This document shows positions 5,932 to 61,810 of a stretch of DNA of 62,094 bases, piece after piece. Below the pieces are notes generated by a model. That model made no database searches. It saw only the letters and a list, made by a program, of their open reading frames with translations, and was not told the origin of the DNA. Source of the stretch: Bernardetiaceae bacterium (GTDB lineage: Bacteria > Bacteroidota > Bacteroidia > Cytophagales > Bernardetiaceae); the NCBI GenBank assembly GCA_020832465.1, contig JAFIER010000250.1, forward strand, positions 1-62,094, in the 5' to 3' direction. Made by a program: the position numbers and the translations under genes. Positions within the stretch are counted from its first letter, which is position 1, and every line of letters begins with the position of its first letter.

Positions 5932-6054
5932 CATACCATTATACGTTTTTCCATAGCATGGGGGTTGCAACCCCCACGCTATCGAAAAATGGGCTTAGCA
6001 ATAATATTTCTAAAAGAAATGTTATTGCTGGCAGGCGAATGCCTATGTAGTATG
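5932..6054. mobile_element. MITE family 1, copy 1
   Basis: Terminal sequence CATAC.ATTATAC at the left and its inverted form (CTATGTAGTATG) at the right enclose two hairpins: one with CCATAGC..GGGGGTTGCAACCCCC, the other around AATATTTCTAAAAGAAATGTTATT. It is flanked by 9-bp direct repeats attacaaac (5923-5931) and ataacaaac (6055-6063), 8 of 9 identical, as expected for a target duplication. No coding capacity. Related to 28446-28569, 38629-38750 and 60091-60212. It occupies the spacer between two divergent genes. Confidence 0.8.
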
Positions 6055-11475: not shown

Positions 11476-12501
11476 GTGCTGATAAAAAAGAAAAAAATAC
11501 CTTTTGTGGTAGCTAAGGATTTACAAGATTTTTTGATAAAATACAAAAAATACAGACCGCTACCTATTGCTTATAGCGACCTTTTTCGCTACTCGAATGC
11601 CATTGCTCACTATGATCGCTTTGGTGAAGATACGCTTTGGAACACCCTTTTTTATGACCCAAGTGATAGAAACGAAATTTATGACGGGCTTAAAGCAATT
11701 TATGCCCTACTTAAAGCCGACGGAGACCTCTCCGTTATGGCACACCTCTACATAGATCGCGTAGATTTGTGTACCTACGGCAATACACAACCTTTTAGAG
11801 TGCGTATCGTAAACCGAATCAATGATAATTTTGACTATTTTTACCTCAAAAAAGCTGATGCTTCAAGAGTTTATGGATTAGAACTCGAGGACTTGGTCTC
11901 GCCCAATCATATCACTTATTTGATATACGAGGATACACTCATCGAAGAGCATATTGCAGGCATGCCAGGCTATCAGTTTATGAATGAATATTTGCAACGC
12001 AAGCAACTCAACAAAACCCGTTTGGGTAAAGAGTTTGTTAAATTTAACGAACGCTGTTTTGTACGCCTACTCGGAGATATGCACGCAAATAATTTTATTG
12101 TAGATGTTACCCCTGACTTCGAAGATGAGCACTACAGAATCAGAGCTATTGATTTTGACCAGCAGTCCTTTGAAGGAAAAAGTGCTGTATATATGCCAAA
12201 ATACTACAAAGAAAATAATCCAATTATTCAAATAGGCATCGAGACAATGACACCCGAAACCGTTCGCCAATACCAAAGAGAAGAGCGTTCGCTTATCGCC
12301 ACACGTATCAAAGCCTCTTATTATGCTCTTAATGCACTCGTAGAGGCAATGCGCAAAGATACAATTTCATTACCCGAAAACGAAAAAAGACTCAAAACCG
12401 AACTCGCTGATTATTACAAAGATAAAAGATTTGAAAAAGCCCATAATATGGGAGATATACTGAGATTGAGCCTCAGCAGATTACTCGAGGAGAGTGAATA
12501 A
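11476..12501 (+). CDS. Kinase-fold protein of unknown substrate
   Basis: 341 residues from a GTG start. The central part resembles the aminoglycoside phosphotransferase / choline kinase-like fold: an N-lobe lysine in DYFYLKKAD, an IEEHIAG hinge, the catalytic loop LLGDMHANNFIV (D-x-H-x-x-N) and a metal-binding AIDFDQQ. The C-terminus is helical. It is soluble and has no signal peptide. I do not recognise a named family; small-molecule or protein phosphorylation is inferred from the loops only. It stands alone, with MITE-type sequence on both sides. Confidence 0.6.
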   Translation: MLIKKKKIPFVVAKDLQDFLIKYKKYRPLPIAYSDLFRYSNAIAHYDRFGEDTLWNTLFYDPSDRNEIYDGLKAIYALLKADGDLSVMAHLYIDRVDLCTYGNTQPFRVRIVNRINDNFDYFYLKKADASRVYGLELEDLVSPNHITYLIYEDTLIEEHIAGMPGYQFMNEYLQRKQLNKTRLGKEFVKFNERCFVRLLGDMHANNFIVDVTPDFEDEHYRIRAIDFDQQSFEGKSAVYMPKYYKENNPIIQIGIETMTPETVRQYQREERSLIATRIKASYYALNALVEAMRKDTISLPENEKRLKTELADYYKDKRFEKAHNMGDILRLSLSRLLEESE

Positions 12502-12528
12502 ACAATAAATGCAAATCATAGAAAAAAA

Positions 12529-12649
12529 CATACTAATAGACATTCGATAACCAGAAATAATGCCTGTAGTACGAAGCTCCAGCTTCGTTATAAGCCACTT
12601 CCGAAGCTGGAGCTTCGGGCTACAGGTTTAAAAAATGTATAGTGGTATA
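12529..12649. mobile_element. MITE family 1 termini enclosing the GCTCCAGC palindrome
   Basis: Left end CATACTAATAGACATTCG plus AACCAGAAATAA equals the family 1 left arm; right end AAAAATGTATAGTGGTATA equals the family 1 right arm. The usual CCATAGCG hairpins are replaced by the palindrome at 12564-12625. The flanks agaaaaaaa (12520-12528) and agaaaaaac (12650-12658) match in 8 of 9 bases, indicating that the hybrid transposed as a unit. Confidence 0.75.
12564..12625. repeat. GCTCCAGC palindrome, copy B
   Basis: 62-bp palindrome almost identical to copy A (11271-11332). It is inserted between the left and right arms of a MITE family 1 element. Confidence 0.85.
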
Positions 12650-12654
12650 AGAAA

Positions 12655-12704
12655 AAACTAACAGCTCTTCAGGAAACACCATGAAGAACGGTTAGTTTTT
12701 TTAT
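12655..12704. terminator. Bidirectional intrinsic terminator
   Basis: AACTAAC..CTCTTCA pairs with TGAAGA..GGTTAGTT and is followed by seven T on the plus strand; the minus strand has a preceding run of A. It lies between the convergent kinase-fold gene (plus) and the lipoprotein gene (minus) and can serve both. Its stem shares the word AACTAACAG with MITE cores. Confidence 0.7.
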
Positions 12705-12815
12705 GCATGAACAAAATGCGATAGCAATAACATTGCCCCAAGCCTTATTGCTTCTAAACCTATTTTTCTTATGGAAAAATGTTGTAGTAGTCTGTTGTAT
12801 CAGTATGAAACACGA

Positions 12816-13241
12816 CTAACGAAAGCCTATGGCAGTGTATTGGTCGGCACTTGTATTGCCATCAACGAATACTCTAAAATTGATGCGCAACTCCTCATCA
12901 AAACCACTAGGGGAACTGGCGAGCTGTCCCGTACCTTCAACCTCAAAAACACCTATACGCTGTCTTGATATTGCAAAACGATTGCGAGAGACTACTGTAG
13001 CCTCTATAGTGCGGTTCGTATTAAAAAAGTTTTCAATATGGATGAGCGAGTCGCTATGTGCCACTTCTCTAATTCTTATACGATAAAAATCTTGAAAACC
13101 TGTAAATATTTCAATTTCTTCAATATCATAAGAACCGACAAATCGCCGTCTCGGGTCGGGGTCTGCCCCTTCACAAGCCGTAAAAAGCACAACAAATACT
13201 AAAAGCAACAGAGATAGATAGGGTAATTTTTTGAATAACAT
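12816..13241 (-). CDS. Small secreted lipoprotein, unknown function
   Basis: 141 residues with an N-terminal signal LPYLSLLLLVFVVLFTAC ending in a lipobox (FTA-Cys), followed by an acidic segment EGADPDP. The mature part is predicted to be beta-rich (alternating hydrophobic/polar in GSYDIEEIEIF and FRIRI-like segments), like many small Bacteroidota lipocalin-type lipoproteins. I see no diagnostic motif. The gene is isolated, convergent with the upstream kinase-fold gene. Confidence 0.7.
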   Translation of the reverse strand: MLFKKLPYLSLLLLVFVVLFTACEGADPDPRRRFVGSYDIEEIEIFTGFQDFYRIRIREVAHSDSLIHIENFFNTNRTIEATVVSRNRFAISRQRIGVFEVEGTGQLASSPSGFDEELRINFRVFVDGNTSADQYTAIGFR

Positions 13242-14903: not shown

Positions 14904-15004
14904 GGGGGGCGTCAAGTTGGTAAATCGACTTAGGAAGATTCAAAACTAACAGTTTTTCGAAAACTGTTAGTTCTGAACTAATTTAACAAAGTTGTCGTAC
15001 ACCC
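14904..15004. mobile_element. MITE family 3, intact copy
   Basis: 101 bp. Left end GGGGGGCGTCAAGTTGG and right end (inverted) GGGTGTACGACAACTTTG form imperfect terminal repeats around the hairpin AACTAACAG..CTGTTAGTT. It is flanked by a perfect 8-bp direct repeat caattagg (14896-14903 and 15005-15012). Non-coding. Partial relatives: 11360-11390, 25425-25462, 43040-43072, 45354-45383. Confidence 0.8.
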
Positions 15005-20956: not shown

Positions 20957-21096
20957 AAAAAAGCGTTTTTGATTTGAATTAAAAACGCTTGGTAGTCTTA
21001 AAGATGTAATGCTCAAAGTCTTTCAAAACTAACAGTTCTCAAAGAACTGTTAGTTCTAAGCATTACTTGTTATACACTACCAAACGCTTTTTTGAG
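20957..21096. terminator. Intrinsic terminator split by a MITE
   Basis: AAAAAAGCGTTTTT (from 20957) would pair with AAAAACGCTTTTTT if the element at 20991-21081 and one copy of its 8-bp duplication were removed. On the minus strand this is the terminator of the large sensor gene ending at 21117. With the insertion the stem arms are separated by more than 90 bp. The left half still has a short stem of its own with the sequence up to 20990. Confidence 0.65.
20991..21081. mobile_element. MITE family 2, copy 1
   Basis: 91 bp with terminal inverted repeats GGTAGTCTTAAAGATGTAAT and GGTAGTGTATAACAAGTAAT around the hairpin AACTAACAGTTCTC/GAGAACTGTTAGTT-type core. Flanked by perfect 8-bp direct repeats aaacgctt (20983-20990 and 21082-21089). 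Nearly identical to 38811-38901 (inverted) and 61709-61799. Confidence 0.9.
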
Positions 21097-28445: not shown

Positions 28446-28569
28446 CATTCTACTACACTTTTTTTCATAGGGTGGGGGGCAAACTCCACGCTATGGAAAA
28501 ATAAACTTAGCAATAACAGGGCTCAAAGCAGTGTTATTGCTGAATGGCGAATGTATAGTAAGTAGTATG
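28446..28569. mobile_element. MITE family 1, copy 2 (degenerate)
   Basis: Left CATTCTACTACAC, hairpins CATAGGGTGGGG/CCACGCTATGGAAAAAT and AATAACAGGGCTCAAAG..GTGTTATTGCT, right GAATGTATAGTAAGTAGTATG. It is clearly related to 38629-38750 but more diverged, and the flanks (acaatagct and aggttatta) show no duplication. Probably an old insertion. Confidence 0.7.
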
Positions 28570-38628: not shown

Positions 38629-38750
38629 CATACTACTATACATTTTTACATAGCGTGGGGTTTGCAAACCACACGCTATGGAAAAATGGGCTTAGCAATA
38701 ATATTGCTCAAAGAAATCTTATTGCTTGATAGCGAATGTATAGTAGTATG
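38629..38750. mobile_element. MITE family 1, copy 3
   Basis: 122 bp with ends CATACTACTATACATT and AATGTATAGTAGTATG, perfect inverted repeats of each other. Inside: ATAGCGTGGGGTTTGCAAACC-type hairpin and AATAATATTGCTC..ATCTTATTGCTT. Flanked by perfect 9-bp repeats atgaaaaaa (38620-38628 and 38751-38759). It is in inverted orientation relative to 60091-60212. Confidence 0.9.
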
Positions 38751-38810
38751 ATGAAAAAATAAATAAAATTCGCTTGAAAAACGTATTTCTAAAAATAGAT
38801 TTTATTATTC

Positions 38811-38901
38811 GGTAGTGTATAACAAGTAATGCTTAGAACTAACAGTTCTTTGAGAACTGTTAGTTTTGAAAGACTTTGAGCATTACATCTTTAAGACTAC
38901 C
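38811..38901. mobile_element. MITE family 2, copy 2 (inverted)
   Basis: 91 bp, reverse complement of the copies at 20991-21081 and 61709-61799. Perfect 8-bp direct repeat tattattc on both sides (38803-38810 and 38902-38909). It lies 41 bp upstream of fabH and so may affect its promoter. Confidence 0.9.
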
Positions 38902-60090: not shown

Positions 60091-60212
60091 CATACTACTA
60101 TACATTCGATAGCCAGAAATAACATTGCTTTGAGACATGTTATTTCTAAGCCCATTTTTCCATAGCGTGGGGTTTGCAAACCCCACGCTATGGAAAAATG
60201 TATAGTAGTATG
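60091..60212. mobile_element. MITE family 1, copy 4
   Basis: 122 bp, ends CATACTACTATACATT and AATGTATAGTAGTATG. It contains both hairpins in perfect form: AGAAATAACATTGC..ATGTTATTTCT and CCATAGCGTGGGGTTTG/CAAACCCCACGCTATGG. Flanked by gagtaatgc (60082-60090 and 60213-60221), a perfect 9-bp duplication. Confidence 0.92.
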
Positions 60213-61664: not shown

Positions 61665-61708
61665 ATCAAGTAAAAAACAAGTGAGCGTTTTCTAATGCTT
61701 AAAAATAT

Positions 61709-61799
61709 GGTAGTCTTAAAGATGTAATGCTCAAAGTCTTTCAAAACTAACAGTTCTCAAAGAACTGTTAGTTCTAAGCATTACTCGTTATACACTACC
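61709..61799. mobile_element. MITE family 2, copy 3
   Basis: 91 bp, differing from 20991-21081 at about one position (ACTCGTTATA for ACTTGTTATA). Perfect 8-bp direct repeat aaaaatat (61701-61708 and 61800-61807). It is between the phosphatase gene and its terminator. Confidence 0.92.
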
Positions 61800-61810
61800 A
61801 AAAATATATC

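Follow-up and report, generated by a model that had tools for sequence, protein, structure and literature searches.

The window, that is, the whole stretch of 62,094 nucleotides analyzed here, corresponds to contig C246 of a 4.6-Mb genome assembled in 289 contigs. At positions 12529-12649, in an A-run between two converging ORFs (11476-12501 on the forward strand and 12816-13241 on the reverse strand), it carries an element of 121 bases which, on direct reading of the sequence, consists of the ends of one repeat family, family 1, around a double palindrome of the GCTCCAGC type. No Pfam or NCBIfam family was found for the upstream gene, and the window as a whole gave no Rfam match. Because the hybrid lies between two converging ORFs, its effect on host expression would be expected to be small. 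Its parts, with the target duplication on either side, are as follows.

12520-12528, no strand: left 9-bp target duplication AGAAAAAAA, from the sequence, 8/9 identical to 12650-12658
12529-12544, forward: left family-1 terminal inverted repeat CATACTAATAGACATT, 14/16 against the family-1 end motif
12545-12560, forward: family-1 left arm CGATAACCAGAAATAA, extending to the start of the lost hairpin, from comparison of the left 32 nt
12558-12560, forward: left junction, TAA common to families 1 and 2 (TAAT with the family-1 variant AAATAAT), from comparison of copies
12558-12634, forward: core derived from family 2, TAATGCC...CTACAGGTTTAAAAA; other copies match 12558-12638 at up to 98% identity
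12566-12587, forward: REP-like unit 1, GTAG at 12566-12569 and palindrome CGAAGCTCCAGCTTCG at 12572-12587, from the sequence
12602-12623, reverse: REP-like unit 2, inverse, palindrome CGAAGCTGGAGCTTCG at 12602-12617 and CTAC at 12620-12623, from the sequence
12631-12634, forward: right junction, bases common to family 2 (TTTAAAAA) and family 1 (AAAAATGTATAG), from comparison of copies
12634-12649, reverse: right family-1 terminal inverted repeat AATGTATAGTGGTATA, 14/16 against the end motif as reverse complement
12650-12658, no strand: right 9-bp target duplication AGAAAAAAC, from the sequence, 8/9 identical to 12520-12528

The palindromic core forms an inverted repeat (12563-12587 with 12602-12626) with 25-nt arms, 92% complementary, around a 14-nt loop. 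The predicted RNA fold of 12520-12660 has an energy of -50.4 kcal/mol (z -7.6, with none of 200 shuffles as stable), and the DNA fold of 12529-12649 gives a z of -8.2. Other hairpin-forming or repeated sequences were noted in the window. The intergenic region of the hybrid also holds, some 70 bp away from it, a sequence at 12715-12799 that resembles a decayed family-1 element (local alignment score of 38; the highest of 500 shuffles reached 35). A hairpin with 20-nt arms, AAAAAACTAACAG...GGTTAGTTTTTT, occupies 12652-12701 and overlaps the right target duplication of the hybrid; it is possibly a two-way terminator, and it is not listed by the terminator scan, whose limit is exceeded by its loop of 10. 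A third repeat family, built around the AACTAACAGTTCT hairpin, is present at 20990-21084, 38808-38901 and 61708-61802 with about 94-99% identity, and a related hairpin is found at 14944.

The ends of the hybrid belong to an abundant family. The family-1 end motif CATACTACTATACATT has 495 matches in the genome at up to 2 mismatches, compared with 9 for the reversed control. An ordinary family-1 element is about 122 bp long and contains two hairpins (CAGAAATAACATT... and CCATAGCGTGGGG...), both of which are present in the copies at 38629-38750 and 60091-60212 of the window, with diverged family-1 hairpins near 5932-6054 and 28446-28560. At 12529-12649 both hairpins are absent, in agreement with the sequence-only reading, in which the palindrome replaces the normal hairpins between family-1 ends. 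The left 32 nt of the hybrid are identical at 29/32 positions to the family-1 copies at L070, L009, L013 and L011, and against single family-1 copies the arms reach up to 29/32 on the left and 18-19/20 over the 20 nt on the right. Among the copies with the best arm fit is L070, which has CATACTAAT, TCGATA, AAATAAT and the TATA right end in common with the hybrid.

Family 1 is a genuine mini-transposon (MITE) with 9-bp target duplications. Among 60 family-1 end pairs, 34 have flanks matching at 8-9 of 9 positions (21 of them perfectly), compared with 7 of 3540 mismatched pairings; these pairs come from loci of the genome (G000) collected through its 40 top-scoring family-1 copies, through the first-listed places of the exact motif and through palindrome copies, so that they are not a random sample and include decayed and nested pairs. 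A likely partner for the family, judging from its sequence, is the IS at L075:1284-2507, an element of 1224 bp with ends (CATACTACTAGACAAA) near-identical to the family-1 motif, of which only one whole copy, at a contig end, was assembled. It encodes a DDE transposase of 384 aa that matches PF01609 above the cut-off (5.5e-22) and scores 149.7 bits (1.1e-43) against the NCBIfam model IS4_2, for which the cut-off is 152. The transposase contains YPLRWQIEVCFKHLK, which fits the IS4-group signature Y-R-E-K. At L071:201-343, a family-1 MITE and the last 31 bp of the IS form one unit between copies of GGTTTGGAT (9/9), which suggests that a single transposase may use both kinds of ends; this joint element probably did move as a unit. 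Shortened or interior-less family-1 elements are common in the sample, and several of them, at L124, L127, L139, L150, L158 and L163, have 9/9 duplications. At L137:151-193, an element of 43 bp retains the two family-1 ends and a few bases.

The core of the hybrid has a different source. When the genome was searched with the hybrid, many copies matched positions of about 12558-12638 only, and a 24-base palindrome pattern gave 170 matches at up to 3 mismatches and none for the control, a count in which some elements figure twice because the pattern is near-palindromic in its context. Most of the well-matching palindrome copies lie within a longer element, GGGTGTACG...CGTACACCC, mostly of 213 bp, which we call family 2. 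Of 28 family-2 pairs, a few of them wrongly paired, 7 have perfectly matching flanks at 8 bp and 12 match with at most one mismatch, compared with 4 among 756 cross pairs, and a length of 9 bp gives 0/28. Since the duplications are of 8 bp in one family and of 9 bp in the other, families 1 and 2 probably use different transposases. The hybrid retains TAATG to the left and TTTAAAAA to the right of the palindrome, as family 2 does, and hence took an interior piece of family 2 and not the bare palindrome. It also spells GTAGTAC as family 2 does, where several other palindrome copies have GTAGTAAC, and its core is one base off the usual family-2 sequence among the copies read (CAGG for CAGC). The palindrome is found in other surroundings as well; the list of its copies has 91 rows, in which many pairs are counted on both strands. 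Around the core of the hybrid, the GGGTGTACG ends and the 8-bp duplication of family 2 are absent, and the core alone was kept. The palindrome had been described as foreign cargo; it does come from another repeat family, but that family is an abundant MITE of the same genome, and the palindrome is part of its interior.

In its anatomy, the core is like a pair of GTAG-tagged REP palindromes, with a GTAG beside each short palindrome and the two units (12566-12587 and 12602-12623) in inverse orientation. One RAYT above its family cut-off is encoded in the genome, at L166 (NF047646, 88.3 bits against a cut-off of 80), and none of the 30 Y1-transposase loci examined has a palindrome of this kind in the surrounding DNA that was covered. 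Similar GTAG-palindromes, some single and some paired in inverse orientation, are also present in G003, a genome of the same family but of another genus, where the stretches examined do not show them within these MITE frames; the GTAG-tagged inverted pairs at L022 and L025 of G003 are made of CGAAGCTCCAGCTTCG palindromes.

The 9-mers on the two sides of the hybrid are identical at 8 of 9 positions, as had been noted before, and a match of this quality has a chance of 2.1e-4 for any two 9-mers of the window at the same spacing. Given the A-rich left 9-mer, the chance becomes 1.4e-3 (86 of 62085 window positions), and the duplication is thus weaker than a match in mixed sequence would be, because it falls in an A-run. 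An empty target site would be expected to read AGAAAAAA(A/C). The earlier description of the inner borders of the palindrome as free of duplication also holds, as no repeat is listed there by the repeat scan. Both junctions between the two families consist of an overlap of 3-4 nt, TAA(T) on the left and AAAA on the right; overlaps of this length can arise by chance in A+T-rich DNA.

We analyzed whether these junctions recur. The left junction has 3 matches in the genome, one exact (the hybrid) and two with 3 mismatches, and its reversed control also has 3; the right junction has 5, one exact (the hybrid) and four that are ordinary family-2 sequence. No second copy of the hybrid that would show its movement was found in the 289-contig assembly. 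In the genome_contigs collection, the left junction has two exact matches, in a cyanobacterium and in Pseudoalteromonas, which is about what chance alone would give for a 19-base sequence in 257 billion, and we discarded them. The search for the core within family-1 elements of related genomes, put forward with the sequence-only reading, yielded nothing of the kind: of 38 other genomes, none of the same genus, two matched the hybrid region, and with palindrome pieces only. Relatives of the upstream gene are present in 8 of the 10 other genomes of the family, and the downstream gene was found at none of these 8 loci, so they offer no comparable empty site.

Elements in which the two families are combined in other ways exist elsewhere. 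At L003, a family-2 element lies inside a family-1 element; the inner element has its own duplication at 7/8 (CATTTTTA/CATTTTTC), and on the outside an 8-bp sequence, ACAAAAAA, is repeated. At L087, a family-1 hairpin contains a family-2 relative, and at L123, family 2 is found within the same kind of hairpin with a perfect 8-bp duplication, in an outer frame that is not clearly family 1. The elements at L002 and L031 are partly collapsed, consisting of a family-1 left arm, one hairpin, the family-2 core and right end, and the right part of family 1. The element at L031 lies at a different place from the hybrid, and on its right it merges into a further family-1 element. Its left end, CATACTAATAG, is similar to that of the hybrid, and its family-2 right end is followed by AAAAAATGTATAG; a deletion between its two A-runs would yield the right junction of the hybrid with six A's, and from such a form the whole hybrid would be reached by deletions between short repeats. 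The element at L052 combines the left end of family 1 with the right end of family 2. At L095:227-382, a palindrome core again lies in a family-1 frame, with other junctions and with flanks matching at 2/9; this is a second, independent hybrid. No intermediate is present at the hybrid's own locus.

On balance, and with moderate confidence, we favor an origin in which a family-2 element nested within a family-1 element and deletions between short repeats then removed the rest. The first step, which is strongly supported, would be the entry of a family-1 MITE into the A-run, with a probable IS4-type transposase acting on the 16-bp ends and duplicating 9 bp. A family-2 MITE with its REP-like double palindrome core would then have entered the family-1 element, either at this site or at a previous one. 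Finally, the family-1 hairpins and the family-2 ends would have been lost through a pair of deletions, each between direct repeats of a few bases (TAA/TAAT at the left, AAAA(A) at the right) and of a kind that strong hairpins favor, leaving the family-2 core between family-1 ends. The order of these events is one that we infer. As both family-1 ends are kept, the hybrid should remain mobilizable by the IS4-type transposase.

Other routes to the same structure were weighed against nesting followed by deletion. A single event, in which replication or repair synthesis crossing the family-1 hairpins switched template to a family-2 core elsewhere and back, would agree with the common sequence of 3-4 nt at both junctions and with a core almost unchanged from family 2; we nevertheless regard it as unlikely, given that two precise switches are required and that nested and collapsed forms able to feed the deletion route exist. 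A possible, if somewhat doubtful, course, which fits either route of formation, is the one suggested in the sequence-only reading, in which the hybrid arose at another place and reached this site by transposition as one unit. The two retained ends, the 8/9 target duplication and the shortened family-1 elements with 9/9 duplications in the sample are consistent with such movement. However, each junction is found only at the hybrid, in an assembly whose 289 contigs may have lost a copy, and the duplication does not separate before from after: it would be no less expected had a normal family-1 element entered this site first and had its interior altered afterwards.

Direct placement of the REP pair by a RAYT into a deleted family-1 element would account for the GTAG next to each palindrome, for the inverted pair, and for the palindromes outside these MITE frames in the other genus, and the genome does encode one RAYT. 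The stretches of family 2 that border the palindrome of the hybrid left and right, and the lack of such a palindrome around the 30 Y1-transposase loci examined, speak against it, and we consider it very unlikely. As for unrelated inverted repeats that merely happen to flank a palindrome, the A+T-rich region and a duplication that falls in an A-run give this explanation some room, but the agreement of both arms with single family-1 copies and the excess of end motifs over the control leave it hardly any probability.

The hybrid is best described as a genuine and well-formed mosaic MITE of an ordinary kind, with steps that are unusually plain within one genome. It illustrates how mini-elements may trade parts through nesting and deletion, and how REP-like pairs may be carried within elements that use another transposase. 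The origin of new MITE interiors is rarely visible, and here nested, half-collapsed and fully collapsed stages stand side by side, which makes the nesting-and-deletion route testable in close relatives. A broader idea, distinctly speculative and in our judgment improbable, is that in this genome a combinatorial pool of hairpin modules, among them the family-1 hairpins and the REP-like pairs, is shuffled between MITE frames served by different transposases, with hybrids staying mobile, new MITE families arising by core exchange and REP pairs spreading in MITEs.

Among the titles and abstract openings that made up our literature search, no MITE with a swapped REP core was found, which is no proof of absence. 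In the portion of their report considered here, Di Nocera et al. (2013, PMC3733652) distinguish 24 families of GTAG REPs and describe GTAG-15 dimers inside longer palindromes. Like the dimers described there, the hybrid has a GTAG by each palindrome and an inverted pair with the tags outside (HH type); its pair differs from them in lying within MITE frames with target duplications, with no link to a RAYT found. Among the BOX, RUP and SPRITE repeats, pneumococcal BOX is modular (PMC3049150), and the corresponding part of that report contains no element with the ends of one family and the core of another, unlike the hybrid. The TIME and TIME-COMP mosaics, as the part of the source considered here presents them (PMC4133298), are likewise small elements that bear transposon ends and are joined with other DNA into mosaics, but they have ends of the Tn3 family and mobilize larger genomic segments. 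With IS-derived MITEs, here with a probable IS4-type partner, the hybrid shares its short, non-coding nature, terminal inverted repeats common to the IS, a duplication of fixed length and end motifs numbering in the hundreds; it differs from them in that its interior has been swapped for that of another MITE family.
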